From positions 1 through 64,000 of the forward strand of contig NZ_QAAD01000002.1 of the NCBI RefSeq assembly GCF_003046625.1: a stretch of 64,000 nucleotides of DNA. The letters run 5' to 3'. A program made the translations under genes and the position numbers. A model generated the notes under the pieces. That model saw only the letters and a program-made list of their open reading frames with translations. It was not told the DNA's origin and ran no database searches. Positions 5,728-15,623 of the stretch are shown here, piece after piece; within the stretch, counting starts at the first letter, position 1; each line of letters opens with the position of its first letter. This stretch comes from Mangrovibacterium marinum. Lineage in GTDB: Bacteria; Bacteroidota; Bacteroidia; Bacteroidales; Prolixibacteraceae.

Positions 5728-5896
5728 CAAAAGACCTTCATGATTCGGAGGAAATCACCAACAAGAATGAAAGTTTAGTCTGTTTCGACGATGCTGTTGT
5801 CGTTGTCTCGAAAAGTTATCGGGTTGTCGTTCCTCATCTAATGCAAAACCAGTTATTGGCATGGCAATTTAGCCCCGCTGCGTCGTAATATATTCA
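5728..5896. repeat. 170-bp dispersed repeat (module B), copy 1
   Basis: Begins CCTTCATGATTC, continues AATCACCAACA, GAATGAAAGTTTAG, CTGTTGTCGTTGT, GTTGTCGTTCCTCATCT and AACCAGTTATTG, and ends near the CGTCGTAATA region. The same ordered blocks occur near 50.1, 51.4, 51.6, 54.6 and 55.8 kb, plus a reversed fragment at 44.3 kb. No conserved reading frame survives in all copies. Confidence 0.7.
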
Positions 5897-5982
5897 AAAA
5901 AAAAAGAGTAGATCTCTATCTACCCTTTTCAAACCTAACTAAACCAATAAAACTAATCAAACCTAAACTTATGAAATAAAAT
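5896..5982 (-). ncRNA. Candidate small RNA unit, copy 1 of 3
   Basis: On the minus strand a -7 box TATCTTTG (5996-5989) is followed by about 87 nt that end in a hairpin GGGTAGAT-agag-ATCTACTC and a run of T (5896-5930). No ORF is visible. The sequence from the box to the T-run is nearly identical at 6951-7051 and 15344-15444, and similarity continues upstream through a conserved GTTAA about 22 bases before the -7 box. Expression and the exact start are inferred. Confidence 0.55.
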
Positions 5983-5988
5983 CTACGA

Positions 5989-5996
5989 CAAAGATA
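5989..5996 (-). promoter_or_regulatory. Bacteroidota -7 box for small-RNA unit 1
   Basis: TATCTTTG on the minus strand fits TAnnTTTG. The upstream region (GTTAAC, AACATTAA) is conserved with copy 2. Confidence 0.5.
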
Positions 5997-6251
5997 AAGC
6001 AGAATGCCGGTGTGTGCGTTAACACAGCGTTAAGGAAACATTAAAGAAATTGTAACTCGTACACGAAGCAATCGGCATTTCTGCCCGGAAAGCGCTTGTT
6101 CCCGCCTTATCGGGCTAAGGCAACCGAAGATTGCTCATGCCATCCCCGTTAAAACTCCGGGACCAATTGCGAGCTTCCGGCTTGTTAACCTCCCCAAACC
6201 GGAAAATAACGAGCCTAAACTGTTTTGCTCACCGCAATTGCTCATTTTCGA

Positions 6252-6765: not shown

Positions 6766-6950
6766 AAGTGAAGATTTAGGTAAAACAATATCTTCAAAAG
6801 GTACGATATAGATGTATGAAAAACAATAGGCTTTCAATGCCTTACAGCAGAAATACAAGATGGTTCCGGCATGCTGTTCGTAACATCGCCAACGGCTGGC
6901 ATGGTACATAAAACCTAAATTTGGGAAGTGGAAGGTTCTTCGGTTTAGAG

Positions 6951-7037
6951 CAAAAAAAAAGAGTAGATCTCTATCTACCCTTTTCAAACCTAACTAAACC
7001 AATAAAACTAATCAAACCTAAACTTATGAAATAAAAT
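6951..7037 (-). ncRNA. Candidate small RNA unit, copy 2 of 3
   Basis: Same unit as at 5896-5982: -7 box TATCTTTG at 7051-7044, a U/G-rich body, then the GGGTAGAT/ATCTACTC hairpin and a T-run at 6951-6984. It lies 186 bp upstream of the mscL start on the same strand, so read-through could reach mscL if termination is incomplete. Upstream homology with copy 1 extends to about 7107. The rest of 7108-7279 shows nothing. Confidence 0.55.
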
Positions 7038-7043
7038 CTACGA

Positions 7044-7051
7044 CAAAGATA
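7044..7051 (-). promoter_or_regulatory. Bacteroidota -7 box for small-RNA unit 2
   Basis: TATCTTTG on the minus strand, in the same context as copies 1 and 3. Confidence 0.5.
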
Positions 7052-7279
7052 AGGCAGAATAGAAGTGTGTGCATTAACACAGCGTTAAGGAAACATTAAA
7101 GAAAATGTAACTCGTACAAGAAGTAGCGTAGCCCACTAGCGGCTACAAAAGCGTAACAAACTATACGGCAAGGCATTAAACCAACAGCCCGGATTTAATC
7201 GTCAGCAGAAAAATAACGTTCGGTATTTGTTGTTGAAACAATCGGCTTGCTAAAAACGAATCAACTTGTAGCAAACAGG

Positions 7280-9351: not shown

Positions 9352-9380
9352 TTTGCTTAAACGTTTAAGCATTATTTTTG
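9352..9380 (+). promoter_or_regulatory. lacI-type gene promoter with embedded operator
   Basis: TTTG (9352-9355) and TATTTTTG (9373-9380) are spaced 17 bases and fit the Bacteroidota -33/-7 promoter. The perfect 18-bp palindrome TGCTTAAACGTTTAAGCA (9354-9371) fills the spacer. This is the classic arrangement for autorepression by a LacI-family protein. The core TTTAAACGTTTAAA is repeated at 10436 and 12821. Confidence 0.8.
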
Positions 9381-9428
9381 AACTATCAATCGTTGAAAGC
9401 TAATATTAAACATCGAATTCTGCCTGAT

Positions 9429-10418
9429 ATGAAAAAGACCGTTTCACTGAAAGACATAGCCGCTAAAGTTGGAGTTTCGACAGCTTTGGTTTCATACGTT
9501 CTGAACGGAAAGATGGAAGGCCGAATTAGTAAAGAAGTTGCTGCCCGCATTAAGGCTGTTGCCAAAGAATTAAACTACAGCCCCAACCAAATAGCCAAAA
9601 GCCTGAAAACAAACAGGACCCATACGCTGGGACTGCTACTGGCAGATATTGCCAACCCTTTCTCTTCGCAAATAGCTCGCATTGTTGAGAACGAAGCAAA
9701 CAAGATCGGCTACACGGTTATTATTGGAAGCTCTGACGAGCAAGTCGATAAATCGAGAACCTTAATCGAATTATTCCTGAACCGGCAGGTTGATGGTTTA
9801 ATCCTTTCATTACCGGATCACTCGGAGGAAATTGTTACCGACCTGAAAGAACGGGAGATTCCTTTTGTATTGCTTGACCGATACTTCCCGGAGATTCCTT
9901 GCAATACCGTTGCCGTTGACAATTACGCTGCTGCCAAAATAGCCGTAAAACACCTGTTGGATAATAAGAAAAGTAAAATCGGACTGATCAACTACGATAC
10001 TAGCTTGGCTCATTTGAATGAACGCTTACGCGGTGCGGTTGACATCTGCCAGGGCAATGAAATGGTTGGTCTGGTTCGCTTGGGACATATTCAGGAAGAT
10101 GTAGAGGCAGCGCTTAAAAGCTTCCTTGCAAACAATGTAGAAGCAATCTTCTTCATGTCCAACTTATTAGCGATATCCGGCCTGAAATATTTAAATAAAC
10201 ACCAAATTGCAATTCCTGAGCAACTTGCTGTTATCGCCTTCGATAAAACAGATGCTTTCGACCTGTTCTATACAACAATCACCTATATCAATCAACCACT
10301 GAGCGAACTGGGCGCCGAAGCAGTCAATCTGTTGAATGAATCCATCAAAAGGAAAGGCATCAACAAAACAGTTTATTTAAAAGCTGAGCTTGTAAAGCAA
10401 AACTCGACAGCTACTTAA
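9429..10418 (+). CDS. LacI-family transcriptional repressor of the ketose locus
   Basis: DNA-binding regulator of 329 aa. The N-terminal helix-turn-helix reads VSLKDIAAKVGVSTALVSYVLNG, followed by the hinge helix YSPNQIAKSLK and a periplasmic-binding-protein-like effector domain starting HTLGLLLADIANPFSS. The ATG at 9429 is chosen because upstream frame codons overlap the promoter. The gene is preceded by a palindromic operator in its own promoter, and two further copies precede the fructokinase and porin genes, so I infer it represses itself and both downstream units. The effector is probably a ketose or its phosphate. Confidence 0.9.
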   Translation: MKKTVSLKDIAAKVGVSTALVSYVLNGKMEGRISKEVAARIKAVAKELNYSPNQIAKSLKTNRTHTLGLLLADIANPFSSQIARIVENEANKIGYTVIIGSSDEQVDKSRTLIELFLNRQVDGLILSLPDHSEEIVTDLKEREIPFVLLDRYFPEIPCNTVAVDNYAAAKIAVKHLLDNKKSKIGLINYDTSLAHLNERLRGAVDICQGNEMVGLVRLGHIQEDVEAALKSFLANNVEAIFFMSNLLAISGLKYLNKHQIAIPEQLAVIAFDKTDAFDLFYTTITYINQPLSELGAEAVNLLNESIKRKGINKTVYLKAELVKQNSTAT

Positions 10419-10435
10419 TATTTTTTTGCAAAACT

Positions 10436-10451
10436 GTTTAAACGTTTAAAC
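10436..10451 (+). promoter_or_regulatory. LacI-type operator in front of the fructokinase gene
   Basis: Perfect palindrome GTTTAAACGTTTAAAC, 27 bp before the fructokinase ATG and just after a TTTG that could be the -33 element. Same core as the operators at 9354 and 12821. Confidence 0.8.
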
Positions 10452-10477
10452 TAAGTACACTTAAATACACAAGAATT

Positions 10478-11398
10478 ATGGACGCCAAAAAATCAAACTT
10501 AAAAACAATCGTATGTTACGGTGAAGTCTTATGGGATATCTTCCCTGATGCCACAAAACCGGGCGGGGCCCCGATGAATGTCGCATATCATCTGAAGAAA
10601 TTTGGCATTGACAGCCAAATGATCAGTAGTGTTGGTTCAGACTCGCTTGGTGAGGCGCTTTTAAACCAGCTGCAAGACTGGAATATCCCAACCGAAAACT
10701 GCCAGGTGAATGAAAACTTCCGCACCGGCTTTGTTGAAGCCATCGCTGGTGAAGATCATGAAATGACCTATGTGATTCACGAGGATGTTGCCTGGGATCA
10801 AATTCAACCGTCAACCGCTTATGATACGCTGGTTGAGCAAGCTGATGCCTTTATTTTTGGCACTTTGGTATGCCGGAATGAAAGGTCGCGCAACACACTT
10901 TACAAACTGCTGGATAAAGCCACGTATAAAGTGTTCGACATCAACCTGCGCCCTCCGTTCTACTCGCAGGAAATAATTGAGCATTTATTGGGCCAGTGTA
11001 ACCTTTTGAAATTAAATCACTCGGAACTGGAACTGATTATCTCGTGGTACACTAGTAACCATCGCGATGAAGCGAGTGCCGTTCAGTTTCTTCAGGAGAA
11101 ATTTGATATTGGTGAAGTGATTGTTACCAAAGGAAGTCGTGGGGCTACCTACTACGATGGCAATCAATCGCATACGTCCCCTGCCTGCAAGGTCGAAGTA
11201 AAAGATACTGTTGGCGCCGGCGATTCTTTTCTGGCTGCTTTCCTCTCGAAAAAAATTCAAAATGAAAGCATTGAAACAAGCATGAGCTACGCAACAGCTC
11301 TTGGAGCCTTTGTAGCCTCTAACGAAGGAGCTTGCCCTGCCTATACAATCGATCAAGTTGAGCGATTTGCAAACCTGAACACACGCGTTTCCGCTTAA
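10478..11398 (+). CDS. PfkB-family fructokinase
   Basis: Phosphorylates fructose, probably to fructose 6-phosphate, with ATP in the cytoplasm. The 306-aa protein has the ribokinase-fold signatures: GGAPMNVAYHLKKFG near residue 28, SVGSDSLG, and the anion-hole/catalytic-base motif DTVGAGDSFLAAF near residue 246. The early VCYGEVLWDIFP start is typical of bacterial fructokinases. It lies 31 bp upstream of the FHS permease and behind a LacI operator, so uptake and phosphorylation are co-expressed. Substrate (fructose versus a related ketose) is inferred from the neighbouring 3-epimerase. Confidence 0.88.
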   Translation: MDAKKSNLKTIVCYGEVLWDIFPDATKPGGAPMNVAYHLKKFGIDSQMISSVGSDSLGEALLNQLQDWNIPTENCQVNENFRTGFVEAIAGEDHEMTYVIHEDVAWDQIQPSTAYDTLVEQADAFIFGTLVCRNERSRNTLYKLLDKATYKVFDINLRPPFYSQEIIEHLLGQCNLLKLNHSELELIISWYTSNHRDEASAVQFLQEKFDIGEVIVTKGSRGATYYDGNQSHTSPACKVEVKDTVGAGDSFLAAFLSKKIQNESIETSMSYATALGAFVASNEGACPAYTIDQVERFANLNTRVSA

Positions 11399-11428
11399 AA
11401 TCAATACATAAACCTTAACGAATCAATC

Positions 11429-12802
11429 ATGACAACACTTAATTTAGCAGCAAAATTAAAATCAAAAAATTATGGGCAGATTCTTACCGAGTCCATGAGC
11501 ATTTCCCGGAATAACATCATTCCTTTCATTTTGGTGACCCTTCTATTTGGCCTTTGGGGCTTTGCGAATGCAGTAACCGACCCCATGGTACAAGCTTTCA
11601 AAAAAGTGCTGGAGTTGTCAAACTCACAGGCTGCCTGGGTTCAGATGGCTTTTTATGGTGGTTACTTTTGTATGGCACTTCCCGCGTCCATCTTTATGAA
11701 AAAATACTCCTATAAAGTTGGGATCCTGATCGGATTAGGATTATATGCAACAGGCGCCTTATTATTTTACCCCGCTGCAATAAACGAACAGTTTTGGTTC
11801 TTCTGCTTAAGCCTCTATGTTTTAACATTTGGATTAGCTTTTCTTGAAACAGCGGCTAATCCGTACGTGCTTGCCCTGGGAAGTCAAAAAACAGCAACAA
11901 GACGTTTAAACTTAGCCCAGTCTTTCAATCCACTGGGGTTACTTGCCGGATTGCTGGTTGCCCAACAATTTGTTCTTCGGAATTTAAAATCAGATGATAT
12001 TGCTGATTTCAGAGTCTTGGATGAGGTTTCTAAAGTAATGATAAGAACCACTGATTTAATGACGATCCGTAATCCCTATGTTATACTGGGATTGGTGATT
12101 ATTGGCGTTTTTGTTTTGTTTCTTGTCAATAAAATGCCACAGTCTAGGGATAACAATGAAAGTAGCTCTGAAAATACTTCACAGTCGATTAAGGCTCTGG
12201 TCAGAAATAAGAAATACATCACCGGAGTCTTGGCTCAAACCTTATATATTGGTGCCCAAATTATGAGCTGGACTTATATTTATCACTATGCTGAAGCAAT
12301 AAACATCGATAATCTAACTGCCGGCTATTATCAATTCGCTGCATTTGTCCTGTTTACTGTTGGCCGACTGGTCGGCACGTTCCTATTAAAATACATTAGC
12401 GGTGCAAAACTGCTGGCTCTGTTTAGTCTGTTAGCCGCTTCCTGTATAGCCGGAGCAGTATGCATAAACAGTGGTGTCGGATTGTATTGCATTGTGTTGA
12501 CCTCTTTCTTCATGTCGATTATGTATCCAACCATTTTCGCGACCAGCCTTGGAGGCTTATCGGAAGAAGAAGCGAAGATCGGTTCGGCAGGTTTGGTGAT
12601 GGGAATCGTTGGTGGTGCTTTAATGCCCAAATTACAAGGTATGATCATTGATATTGCCGGTACAGGTGTAGCCGATATTCGAATCATGGGCCTCCCGGAA
12701 GTCAACCTCTCATTCATACTTCCCTTGATTAGCTTCGCTTATATTACCTGGTATGCGTTATATGGCTGCAAGGATAAGTCGGCAACTAAACTTCAGTTCT
12801 AA
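11429..12802 (+). CDS. FHS-family sugar:H+ symporter (FucP-like MFS permease)
   Basis: Inner-membrane sugar importer of 457 aa with about twelve hydrophobic helices. Motifs of the fucose/glucose/galactose permease family are visible: LLFGLWGFANAVTDPMV near residue 39, AFYGGYFCMALPASI and later FLETAANPYVLALG. It follows the fructokinase gene in the same operon. With the kinase and a 3-epimerase nearby it probably carries fructose or a rare ketose rather than fucose. The first 25 residues before SISRNNIIPF are poorly conserved, so a slightly later start is possible. Nothing is truncated. Confidence 0.88.
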   Translation: MTTLNLAAKLKSKNYGQILTESMSISRNNIIPFILVTLLFGLWGFANAVTDPMVQAFKKVLELSNSQAAWVQMAFYGGYFCMALPASIFMKKYSYKVGILIGLGLYATGALLFYPAAINEQFWFFCLSLYVLTFGLAFLETAANPYVLALGSQKTATRRLNLAQSFNPLGLLAGLLVAQQFVLRNLKSDDIADFRVLDEVSKVMIRTTDLMTIRNPYVILGLVIIGVFVLFLVNKMPQSRDNNESSSENTSQSIKALVRNKKYITGVLAQTLYIGAQIMSWTYIYHYAEAINIDNLTAGYYQFAAFVLFTVGRLVGTFLLKYISGAKLLALFSLLAASCIAGAVCINSGVGLYCIVLTSFFMSIMYPTIFATSLGGLSEEEAKIGSAGLVMGIVGGALMPKLQGMIIDIAGTGVADIRIMGLPEVNLSFILPLISFAYITWYALYGCKDKSATKLQF

Positions 12803-12820
12803 TTTTTATTTGACCGATTT

Positions 12821-12836
12821 GTTTAAACGTTTAAAC
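12821..12836 (+). promoter_or_regulatory. LacI-type operator in front of the porin gene
   Basis: Perfect palindrome GTTTAAACGTTTAAAC identical to the one at 10436, located about 95 bp before the porin ATG. TTTG motifs just upstream (12809-12812 and 12818-12821) could serve as -33 element. Confidence 0.78.
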
Positions 12837-12931
12837 TTTTCCAAAAATATCATTCATTAAAACGATTCAATAAACAAAAATCACCGACAGGATCTCACCC
12901 CGTTTGGACTGTCAAACAAGGAGACCTTATT

Positions 12932-14317
12932 ATGAAATTCAAAATCCAACTTATAGCAATGATGATCACATTTTGTCTCTCAGCGGGAGCACAAGTTGTG
13001 ATAACCAACACAAACTTTTCGATGGGAACCACCGGCCGAATTGGTATCGGCATGTCTCCCAACGGAGAGGGAAATCAATGGAAACCTTTAAACCTGTCGG
13101 GACAGGGTTCATTGGCTGGTCGTATGGAACAATACGATTATATGGACTTATTACCGGCCATCCATTTTACACCGCAAACGGAGGATCAGGATGCGACGGA
13201 TGTTACACTGCAGGTTCGTTTGGGAATGTACTCGGCCAATGGCCAGTTTATGGGTAATGTGAGCACCCGTTCTCCCGAAGGTTTAACCTTTATTCTGCCC
13301 GAAACTTATGTTGAAGCACGAAATATTATGGGAAGTGATTGGTCGGCCTGGGTAGGCGTTCGTTTCCGTCGTTACGACGACATCCACATCTGCGATTATT
13401 TCTATTTTGACGATCACTCGGCACAAGGAGCAGGCGTTAGCTATAAAGATACCGAATTCGCCATCTACATGCCTTCCTCTTCTGACTCTGCCGGCGTTTA
13501 CCCTTACAATTATGAAGTTACTGTTGAAGGTGCCACAAACCCGGCCATTCGCCAACGGATGGTGTTCGTCGGTGAACATACCCTGCGCTTCCCGAATGGC
13601 AATTCTCTTAAGCTGTTGGGTGAATATCACACCGTTGCTGCAAATTCCTTAAACGCAAATTATTCCTATCCGTCGGATTATGGTTGGGTACTGGGAGCTA
13701 AATTCAATTCACTCCTAAAAACCAGAATGCCCGGATCGTTCAACCAGCTTGCGGTACGCTACGGTGCCGGAATTGCCAACGGTGGCGACAACGGGAATAC
13801 CTGGACATGGGCGACTTACGGTGCACCTAACAGCTCGGGCAAATATACCGGCGCTTACTCATTCACGGCAGTCGAACACTTCCTGCTAAATCTTCACAAA
13901 CGATTTAGTTTAAACGGATATGCTGTGTTTACCCAAAGTAAAGGTGGCGCATCAAGCATCAATAAAGCAGAGTTCTTCAACGGGAACCAAATTTTTAACC
14001 GCAAAAGAGATTTTGTGGTTGGCTTCCGCTCACTCTACTACGCAACCGACTGGTTGCACTTAATTAATGAAGCACATTATGCAACACGCAGAGATGGTGA
14101 TAATCCTACGGCTGCAATGCTGAAATTTTCGTTCGCGCCGACGATTGTCCCTCTGGGGAAAAAGAATCCCTGGTGCCGTCCTCATATTCGCCTGGTATTC
14201 TCAGCTGCACGTTACAACGATTATGCCCGCGACAATCAATACTCGCCCTACCTGAGTATAAATCATCAGCGTTGGGGAACATACATCGGGATAAAAACGG
14301 AAATGTGGTTATTCTAA
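12932..14317 (+). CDS. LamB/carbohydrate-porin-like outer-membrane protein
   Basis: 461 aa with an N-terminal signal peptide (MKFKIQLIAMMITFCLSAGAQ). It is rich in alternating aromatic beta strands and ends in EMWLF, a C-terminal aromatic residue typical of barrels. The segment VEARNIMGSDWSAWVGVRFRR then HICDYFYFDDHSAQGAGV closely resembles maltoporin-type carbohydrate porins. It probably lets the sugar used by this regulon cross the outer membrane without TonB. A Shine-Dalgarno-like AAGGAG precedes the ATG. It is transcribed with the epimerase gene 27 bp downstream, and the operator upstream puts it under the LacI regulator. Confidence 0.75.
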   Translation: MKFKIQLIAMMITFCLSAGAQVVITNTNFSMGTTGRIGIGMSPNGEGNQWKPLNLSGQGSLAGRMEQYDYMDLLPAIHFTPQTEDQDATDVTLQVRLGMYSANGQFMGNVSTRSPEGLTFILPETYVEARNIMGSDWSAWVGVRFRRYDDIHICDYFYFDDHSAQGAGVSYKDTEFAIYMPSSSDSAGVYPYNYEVTVEGATNPAIRQRMVFVGEHTLRFPNGNSLKLLGEYHTVAANSLNANYSYPSDYGWVLGAKFNSLLKTRMPGSFNQLAVRYGAGIANGGDNGNTWTWATYGAPNSSGKYTGAYSFTAVEHFLLNLHKRFSLNGYAVFTQSKGGASSINKAEFFNGNQIFNRKRDFVVGFRSLYYATDWLHLINEAHYATRRDGDNPTAAMLKFSFAPTIVPLGKKNPWCRPHIRLVFSAARYNDYARDNQYSPYLSINHQRWGTYIGIKTEMWLF

Positions 14318-14344
14318 CTTTTATTGACAATCAAATTTACAATC

Positions 14345-15187
14345 ATGCCCAAATTCGGAACCTCTTATTTATCATTTATACCGTCCTGGTCGCCTGAAGG
14401 AGGCGCCTATGCCATCGGGAAAACAGCGGAATACGGATTCGACATGCTCGAAATCAGCCTGCCTCCCTCGCTAAACTTTGATACCCCAACGGTGAAGAAA
14501 CAGTTGAAGACAGCAGGCATCGACTGTCGGTTAACCTTAAACATTCCGCGCAATTGTCATCTGCCGGCGCAGCCTAAAAAGGCGCTCCAGATGATCAAAG
14601 GTGCTCTCGACATCGTTGCTGAGATGGAAGGTGATTTTCTCGGGGGGGTATTGCATTCCGCTATTGGAGAATTCACGCGCAAACCGTGCTCTGCTAATGA
14701 GCGTGAAATCGTTAAAGAAGTCTTTTTTGAACTGGCCTCTTATGCTGCCGAGCGTGAAATTACAATCGCTCCCGAACCCATTAACCGCTATGAAAGCTAT
14801 GTCCTTACTTCGGCGAGAGAGGTGTTAGATCTGATCGATGCGACACAAGCGAAAAATATCGGGGTTCACCTCGACACCTTTCACATGAATATTGAAGAAG
14901 CCAATTTCTACGATCCGGTTATTAGCTGCGGAAATCGCTTAAAGCATCTCCATATTACGGAGAGTGACCGGGGAATGACCGGGGAAGGAAACGTTTGTTG
15001 GGATGACTTTTTCAAAGCACTCAGCGAAATCAATTACCAAGGTCCACTGGTGCTGGAAAACTTTTCATCACAAATAAAAGAACTGGTTGGTCCAACTTCG
15101 TTGTGGCGCCCCTCAAAATACAATTCAGAAGACTTGGCGAAAGGGAGCCTTGCTTTCATGAAAGCAATGGTAGAAAAGTGGTATTAA
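14345..15187 (+). CDS. D-tagatose/D-psicose 3-epimerase family enzyme
   Basis: Interconverts ketoses at C3 (for example allulose and fructose), feeding the fructokinase of the same regulon. The 280-aa TIM barrel has all four metal ligands of the family: E144 (APEPINRYE), D177 (HLDTFHMN), H203 (KHLHITESDRG) and E238 (LVLENFSS). Their spacings (33, 26 and 35) equal those I recall for the characterised tagatose/psicose epimerases. The ATG at 14345 is preferred to the TTG at 14324. The gene ends shortly before small-RNA unit 3, which lies on the opposite strand. True substrate is inferred. Confidence 0.88.
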   Translation: MPKFGTSYLSFIPSWSPEGGAYAIGKTAEYGFDMLEISLPPSLNFDTPTVKKQLKTAGIDCRLTLNIPRNCHLPAQPKKALQMIKGALDIVAEMEGDFLGGVLHSAIGEFTRKPCSANEREIVKEVFFELASYAAEREITIAPEPINRYESYVLTSAREVLDLIDATQAKNIGVHLDTFHMNIEEANFYDPVISCGNRLKHLHITESDRGMTGEGNVCWDDFFKALSEINYQGPLVLENFSSQIKELVGPTSLWRPSKYNSEDLAKGSLAFMKAMVEKWY

Positions 15188-15343
15188 TACAGAGCGGGGC
15201 TAATCTTACCTCGCTCTTTTTGTTTACATCCAGATCGAACGCGTCCTTTTCGATATTCGAGATTGGCAAGAGAGATGTTCTGCCCGAAAAAGATGAGCCT
15301 GCTTTCTCAAATTCTCGCAGCTGGCCTTTCCTTCGGTTTGGAG

Positions 15344-15430
15344 CAAAAAAAAAGAGTAGATCTCTATCTACCCTTTTCAAACCTAACTAAACCAATAAAA
15401 CTAATCAAACCTAAACTTATGAAATAAAAT
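15344..15430 (-). ncRNA. Candidate small RNA unit, copy 3 of 3
   Basis: Same body and terminator as copies 1 and 2, with the -7 box TATCTTTG at 15444-15437. The region upstream of the box is more diverged but keeps TTAAC at the same distance. It converges on the epimerase gene. The sequence after the hairpin (GCTCC/GCTCT then AAACCGAAG) is also shared with copy 2, so duplication covered more than the transcript. Remaining sequence in 15188-15701 shows only the promoter of the next gene. Confidence 0.55.
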
Positions 15431-15436
15431 CTACGA

Positions 15437-15444
15437 CAAAGATA
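15437..15444 (-). promoter_or_regulatory. Bacteroidota -7 box for small-RNA unit 3
   Basis: TATCTTTG on the minus strand, with TTAAC about 21 bases upstream as in the other copies. Confidence 0.5.
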
Positions 15445-15615
15445 TGCTGAAAAACACAAACATCTGTTAAGCCAACATTAAGAAATGTGCTGCGCAGCAT
15501 ATTTTCAAATTTTGAGATTTCAATCCAATCATTTTCCCGGAAAGTTATCATCTCCCAAAAACCAGGAGGACCGTAAACCTGCTTCCCGTTCCCGCGGGTC
15601 GCCCGCAAAATCTTT

Positions 15616-15623
15616 TATCTTTG
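15616..15623 (+). promoter_or_regulatory. -7 box for the kinase-RapZ fusion gene
   Basis: TATCTTTG on the plus strand. Because transcription should begin near 15630, in-frame starts at 15621 or 15630 are unlikely, which favours the GTG at 15702. Confidence 0.6.

Follow-up and report, generated by a model that had tools for sequence, protein, structure and literature searches.

A probable multicopy small-RNA family of Prolixibacteraceae with a predicted seed against SusC starts and phosphate-type repeats before type-A copies

The part of PMC11697453 on which we rely describes FopS of Bacteroides thetaiotaomicron as a group of paralogous small RNAs (sRNAs), in which a 5' seed acting on susC starts blocks translation and RbpB antagonises this effect. 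GibS of the same species, in the sections of PMC7366714 used here, is a single gene with extra hairpins, a second seed named R2, the targets BT_0771 and BT_3893 and a stationary-phase promoter motif. The DonS-type cis-antisense RNAs of Bacteroides, treated in the same sections, likewise act against susC. RNAs of the kind to which FopS and GibS belong are already known. Here we describe a unit, present three times in a window of 64,000 nucleotides of Mangrovibacterium marinum DNA (the whole stretch analysed), which judging from its sequence most likely encodes one small regulatory RNA in three copies. The units are probably genes of a multicopy, trans-acting sRNA of about 87 nt that resembles FopS and GibS and whose type-A copies would be under PhoB-type control.

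A preliminary description of the window had pointed out three near-identical promoter-to-terminator units, and these are borne out: 100 nt on the minus strand are identical in all three copies, an identity that is not due to chance. Of its coordinates for the units, the ends placed at 6951 and 15344 were one base too long. The -7 box TATCTTTG, the hairpin GGGTAGAT-AGAG-ATCTACTC and the T-run that it named are each found in the units. The conserved bases noticed about 22 nt upstream are also real and consist of half-sites at -26 and -37 from the -7 box, with a further one at -48 in copies 1 and 2. The features are as follows.

5897..5996, minus strand: sRNA unit copy 1, on the 3' side of mscL (102.4 bits with model R1, a score that is not independent because R1 was built partly from the sequence of copy 1 itself)
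5996-5989, minus strand: -7 box of copy 1
about 5983-5897, minus strand: predicted RNA of copy 1 (87 nt)
5962..5983, minus strand: seed of copy 1, GATTTTATTTCATAAGTTTAGG, predicted from the pairing computation to be antisense to SusC start regions (its first 17 nt unpaired in the MFE fold)
5906..5925, minus strand: terminator hairpin of copy 1, after which comes the T-run (an A-run on the plus strand at 5896-5905)
6018..6044, minus strand: half-sites TTAA[CT] with 11-bp spacing at -26/-37/-48, before copy 1
6952..7051, minus strand: sRNA unit copy 2, on the 5' side of mscL and on the same strand (sequence identity, R1)
7017-7038, minus strand: the same seed in copy 2
6961-6980, minus strand: terminator hairpin of copy 2
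7073..7099, minus strand: half-sites TTAA[CT] with 11-bp spacing at -26/-37/-48, before copy 2
15345..15444, minus strand: sRNA unit copy 3 (sequence identity, R1)
15410-15431, minus strand: the same seed in copy 3
15354-15373, minus strand: terminator hairpin of copy 3
15466..15481, minus strand: two half-sites TTAA[CT] with 11-bp spacing at -26/-37, before copy 3
5959-5976, 7014-7031 and 15407-15424, plus strand: the 18 letters AAACCTAAACTTATGAAA singled out in the preliminary description

Copies 2 and 3 also agree in the 14 nt beyond the T-run (6938-6951 and 15331-15344 of the window; minus-strand sequence GCTCYAAACCGAAG), which are also present in some copies elsewhere and absent from copy 1. 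Beside copy 3, genes for a LacI-type regulator, a PfkB kinase, a FucP-like permease, a LamB porin and an epimerase-like protein stand in a row (9378-15187) that looks like a sugar-use operon.

Promoters of Bacteroidota are characterised by a -7 box. Such a box, of the TAnnTTTG type, precedes the seed by 21–25 nt in all but two of the 45 distinct copies that have one (43 of 45). Two copies without a recognised end were set aside together with L007 and L089, which left 41, and the 17 of these picked for an 8-pair stem and a 4-base loop made up the alignment in which hairpin pairs were counted. On the sRNA strand all 187 cells of this alignment are paired, sixteen of them as G-U, whereas 171 of the 187 pair on the complementary strand. 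The minus strand therefore fits the hairpin better. Two-sided changes are seen at 6 of the 11 hairpin pairs, and the covariation score is reached by none of 500 shuffles. In the MFE fold of the 87-nt RNA the first 17 nt are unpaired and the terminator hairpin is formed, and the body contains a weak G-U-rich helix downstream of the seed (MFE -16.2; z -1.81; 9 of 200 shuffles fold equally well). The steady distance between -7 box and seed and the covariation of the hairpin with its strand-specific G-U pairs support the earlier suggestion that the units would produce paralogous RNAs of about 87 nt. The opposite reading, offered earlier in the form of a one-time leader, is that the plus strand matters as an mRNA leader, past or still in use, that includes a start codon (AAACCTAAACTTATGAAA), and that the RNA-like look of the minus strand is a by-product. 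The plus strand does resemble a SusC start there. However, in the window copies its ATG is followed by AAA and then by TAA, the better pairing of the hairpin on the sRNA strand counts against a leader, and so do the constant spacing of box and seed and the T-run, whose place after the minus-strand hairpin is shared by other genera. The plus-strand leader is thus disfavoured, and we consider it extremely improbable.

Nine members of the sRNA family are present in the genome, five identical and four diverged. Outside the window, a genome search detected two more identical copies and two at 75–76% identity, and contig 12 carries two further diverged members with R1 scores of 32.6 and 33.3 bits, one retaining the hairpin together with the beginning of the seed and the other having the seed CATAGATTTAGA. 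This count leaves out a weak R1 place at C4:168468 (37.3 bits). The diverged paralogs L089 and L368 have retained the seed and the hairpin and lost the remainder. BLAST matches were obtained in 34 of 37 genomes of Prolixibacteraceae and in none of 24 genomes from other families. The exact seed pattern CATAAG occurs in 121 of 140 Prolixibacteraceae genomes and its AGG version, CATAGG, in 34 of the 140; a scan of genome contigs for a promoter-spaced seed yielded at least 116 stretches. The genera named among the matches listed are Mariniphaga, Draconibacterium, Sunxiuqinia, Maribellus, Prolixibacter, Tangfeifania, Mangrovibacterium, Puteibacter and Gaoshiqia, all of Prolixibacteraceae, and one listed match lies in a MAG that bears the title Chitinophaga pinensis and agrees in its match places with G081, a Prolixibacteraceae genome. 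The covariance-type search of the genome and its relatives that had been proposed as a check is answered by the R1 and seed searches, with the nine members and a spread throughout Prolixibacteraceae.

Across the order, as delimited by the search tool's own grouping (295 genomes), R1 matched 37 genomes at E <= 0.01, 5 of them in Prolixibacteraceae, where chance at E 0.01 would give about 3 of 295. The matches in other families mostly have E-values, which are rough, of 3e-4 to 0.01 per genome. Family f30 contains strong R1 matches of up to 58.9 bits with a T run, CATAGATTT and a hairpin. Among the 25 R1 places read outside Prolixibacteraceae, TTCATA occurs in 14 and CATGG in one, and neither of them in ten (L215, L218-L220, L223, L225, L231, L232, L234, L235). 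No Rfam family, FopS included, reaches its gathering score for the units in the window. In seven loci searched up to E 5, FopS did not appear and no match was judged real, the scores staying under the family cut-offs. Plasmid and phage records gave nothing better than E 0.8–0.9.

Near-identical dispersed copies and a transposase gene at 998-2161 could mean that the copies are remains of a small transposing mobile element. Against this, homologs of the gene at 15621, which stands beside copy 3, lie near copies in three further genomes of the genus (L008, L009, L010), so that the neighbourhood recurs in four genomes with that of the window included, and it was on this ground that the mobile-element reading was rejected. 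Moreover, copies in other genera form tandem arrays with differing flanks (five copies within 1.5 kb in L016), and the conserved parts are the promoter, the seed and the hairpin. Such an origin is very improbable.

Many genes for SusC, a type of outer-membrane nutrient receptor, have a start region, AAAYTTATGAAAAAAAATC, to which the 5' seed is antisense. In this genome 42 SusC genes score above the family cut-off; their start codons were picked by hand as the farthest ATG with two exceptions. Against these 42 starts, the 5' body pairs with a mean energy of -22.7 kcal/mol (shuffled bodies: -15.2), a mean that 0 of 100 shuffles attained. SusC starts also pair more strongly than 38 other genes of the window (mean -22.2 vs -16.9, P 4.6e-6), a difference reproduced by none of 40 shuffled bodies; in a fixed register, 14.3 of 23 positions pair for SusC and 11.4 for the 38 window genes. 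The 22 long (STN-type) SusC pair more strongly than the other 20, and the signal of the non-STN SusC is weaker (P 0.012 in the fixed register, P 0.004 by energy). At two mismatches, the 18 letters matched two places other than the sRNAs, namely the start of a SusC gene at C6:229717 and a start of lipoprotein-like type at C13:12092. These comparisons lend computational support to the proposal of the preliminary description that the RNA base-pairs with SusC mRNA starts, and among the gene starts compared (42 of SusC and 38 others of the window), SusC starts appear to be favoured. Different seeds within one genome also seem, by computation, to fit different leaders, as for the CATAAG and CATAGA seeds: the pairing energy of SusC L066 (AAATCTATG) is -22.1 when the CATAGA paralog is the partner, as against -12.2 for the common seed.

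As for the SusC frames themselves (L047-L088), 22 of the 42 start at least 90 aa ahead of the profile match. Many of the long ones have an MKK/MKKN-type extension of about 20 aa ahead of the usual signal peptide, and the coding letters of this extension share in the predicted pairing.

Being A-rich, the leaders of Bacteroidota are easy partners for a U-rich RNA. The seed might be mainly an RNA-chaperone site, a sponge or part of a special terminator, its match to SusC coming from A/U-rich composition. The body is indeed U/G-rich, some phage copies stand directly after genes and ahead of terminators, and covariation of the leaders is missing outside genus g7. However, shuffled bodies of the same composition lack the SusC preference in both sets of shuffles, and L089 and L368 kept the seed with the hairpin when the rest was lost. 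We regard an explanation of this type as quite unlikely and pairing with SusC starts as the preferred one.

Of the 140 genomes, 113 contain leader CAAAYTTATGAAAAAA and 76 contain leader CAAAYCTATGAAAAAA. In genus g7, where type-A seeds read CATAGG, 31 leaders are CAAAYC and 1 is CAAAYT (T1:C31). General covariation of seeds and leaders between genera was rejected on recount, the switch being confined to g7. Nine genera having CATAAG seeds only show T461:C80, and nine other genera with CATAGG copies in at least one genome, g7 apart, show T301:C56, so the leader shift is absent outside g7. The T:C sums per genus, added by hand and including some leader places that are not SusC, are as follows.

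Genera with CATAAG seeds only: g1 56:8, g3 40:2, g5 24:0, g8 25:9, g14 0:0, g17 41:2, g18 137:53, g21 117:4, g23 21:2
Genera with CATAGG copies: g2 13:8, g6 0:0, g9 25:4, g10 2:0, g11 211:34, g12 3:0, g13 24:4, g15 19:3, g20 4:3
Four genera without seed patterns, with few leaders: g4 2:0, g16 4:0, g19 1:1, g22 0:0

G-U pairing allows the CATAGG seed to accept both leader letters. The g7 seed pairs better with the leaders of g3 and g1 than their own seeds do, and the g3 seed likewise does so for g1. Thirteen of the 31 g7 leaders were read; 8 are STN-SusC-like by eye, 2 are those of a different protein, and in 3 a long frame is lacking.

The 210 seed matches, less 2 with short flanks, 4 without a box and 20 duplicates, gave 184 distinct promoters, 85 of type A and 99 of type B. 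In type A, two [GT]TAA[CT] half-sites stand 11 bp apart in 54 of 85 promoters, compared with 0.79 expected from shuffling, and three are present in 6. Pairs at spacings of 9, 10, 12 and 13 number 0–2, and 53 of the 85 have the exact register with both -26 and -37. In the porin-pst operons of Prolixibacteraceae (L330-L341), four [GT]TAA[CT] in a row at 11-bp steps are found in all 12 counted, and in 10 of these, 15 bp separate the last half-site from a -7-like box, giving -15, -26, -37 and -48; in the other two, no -7-like box was found. The 12 belong to 18 pst-type loci, of which L342-L347 were left out because no such porin was recognised before pst. A pattern TTAACA-N5-TTAACA tried for the pst sites missed most of them. 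The half-site [GT]TAA[CT] was chosen after inspection of the pst sequences, and its counts were then compared with those from shuffled sequence, from other spacings and from the regions upstream of SusC. Only 1 of 42 SusC upstream regions has a half-site pair, and in the 42 SusC loci the combination of a -26 and a -37 half-site is absent from all 134 TAnnTTTG boxes. Among 56 boxes in the window, the three units are the only ones with both. The four half-sites before porin-pst are a candidate Pho box of Prolixibacteraceae, and the type-A repeats, being in the same register, suggest PhoB-type control of these copies.

In type B, the 11-bp pair is present in 7 of 99 promoters, so Pho control cannot cover all members; a 10-bp pair is present in 37 of 99, perhaps owing to another regulator. 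OmpR-family response regulators often use repeats of 10–11 bp. The sRNAs may thus be real and the 11-bp repeats a common type of site, served by a member of this family other than PhoB; the 10-bp spacing of type B is in line with this, as is the general use of such repeats. On the other hand, the half-site letters, the spacing and the register to the -7 box in type A are identical to those of the porin-pst operons. A regulator other than PhoB is a serious contender, at somewhat less than an even chance. A link between phosphate and SusC does exist elsewhere in the phylum, in the opposite direction: according to the part of PMC8115612 used here, low phosphate induces some SusCD complexes of Flavobacterium and does not repress them.

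In viral contigs, the 18-letter seed occurs in 32 stretches, and in 11 of them (L240, L241, L242, L245, L246, L247, L250, L253, L260, L266, L268) it is followed by a terminator-like hairpin and a T-run. The corresponding counts are 0 of 29 for the reversed pattern (Fisher P 3.9e-4) and 0 of 32 for the opposite side (Fisher P 3.5e-4). The 11 cases are not all independent because L246 and L260 look near-identical. A -7-like box is present in four of nine viral loci examined closely (L242, L245, L246, L266). The seed directly follows a portal gene in L240 and a virion gene in L268. Some viral seed-terminator modules stand directly after phage structural genes or an apparent tRNA end.

We propose that the sRNA would be transcribed from a Bacteroidota -7 promoter and ended by the hairpin and the T-run, as the sequence and its covariation indicate. 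According to the computed pairing, its single-stranded 5' seed GAUUUUAUUUCAUAAGUUUAGG would bind SusC mRNAs across the start codon and the codons that follow it, most of all the mRNAs of the long N-terminal (STN-type) SusC, from genes starting like CAAAYTTATGAAAAAAAATC (MKKN), and by analogy with FopS this would block translation. Paralogs within a genome would carry different seed letters suiting different leaders. A PhoB-type response regulator may switch on the type-A copies via the 11-bp direct repeats in the pst register, in which case synthesis of some sugar receptors would fall when phosphate is scarce. An RRM-1 protein, the gene for which is present, may bind the sRNA as RbpB binds FopS.

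A broader reading, which we put forward as speculative and on balance unlikely, is an order-wide "anti-start" RNA code in which seeds match classes of SusC leaders, one class under PhoB control trades sugar uptake against phosphate, and phages use the seed-plus-terminator module to silence host receptors, for example those used by other phages. If the proposed mechanism is true, FopS-like control of SusC extends beyond Bacteroidaceae to two or more other families of the order, one of them Prolixibacteraceae, where it is tied to phosphate supply. The seed and leader variants inside one genome would offer a convenient means of testing target choice by sRNAs, and the phage copies suggest a receptor-silencing trick.

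Compared with FopS, as presented in the part of PMC11697453 cited above, the family described here is likewise multicopy (14 FopS; 9 members found here), has a predicted single-stranded 5' seed followed by a Rho-independent terminator, to which a weak body helix is added here, and has a seed complementary, by computation, to susC translation start regions. FopS has a canonical sigma-ABfr promoter; the comparison, made on the -7 box alone, sets against it a TAnnTTTG-type -7 box at a steady distance. Like the FopS host, this genome encodes RRM-1 protein (two RRM_1 matches above the cut-off), and as the FopS sequence occurs in a phage (PMC11697453), so the seed occurs in viral contigs. The predicted RNA, at about 87 nt, is longer than FopS (65–70 nt), and FopS is bile-salt induced and lies within Bacteroidaceae, whereas this family belongs to Prolixibacteraceae. 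Phosphate-type repeats like those of the type-A copies are not described for FopS in the available part of PMC11697453, where the word phosphate is absent, and the literature searched contains nothing that joins FopS-like sRNAs to phosphate or to Prolixibacteraceae. With GibS, as covered in part of PMC7366714, the RNAs share an extended unstructured 5' seed around target start codons and a terminator, and the single gene, extra hairpins, second seed, targets and promoter motif of GibS set it apart. DonS-type RNAs are encoded divergently to susC in the same source, and the members here are otherwise placed: there is no overlap between the nine and the 42 SusC genes, 3.2 kb being the shortest distance, and two members lie on a contig without any of the 42. 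On paper, the sRNAs described here would work like FopS and GibS in plan and predicted mechanism, and the new element is the phosphate-type repeats before the type-A copies, which match the porin-pst register.
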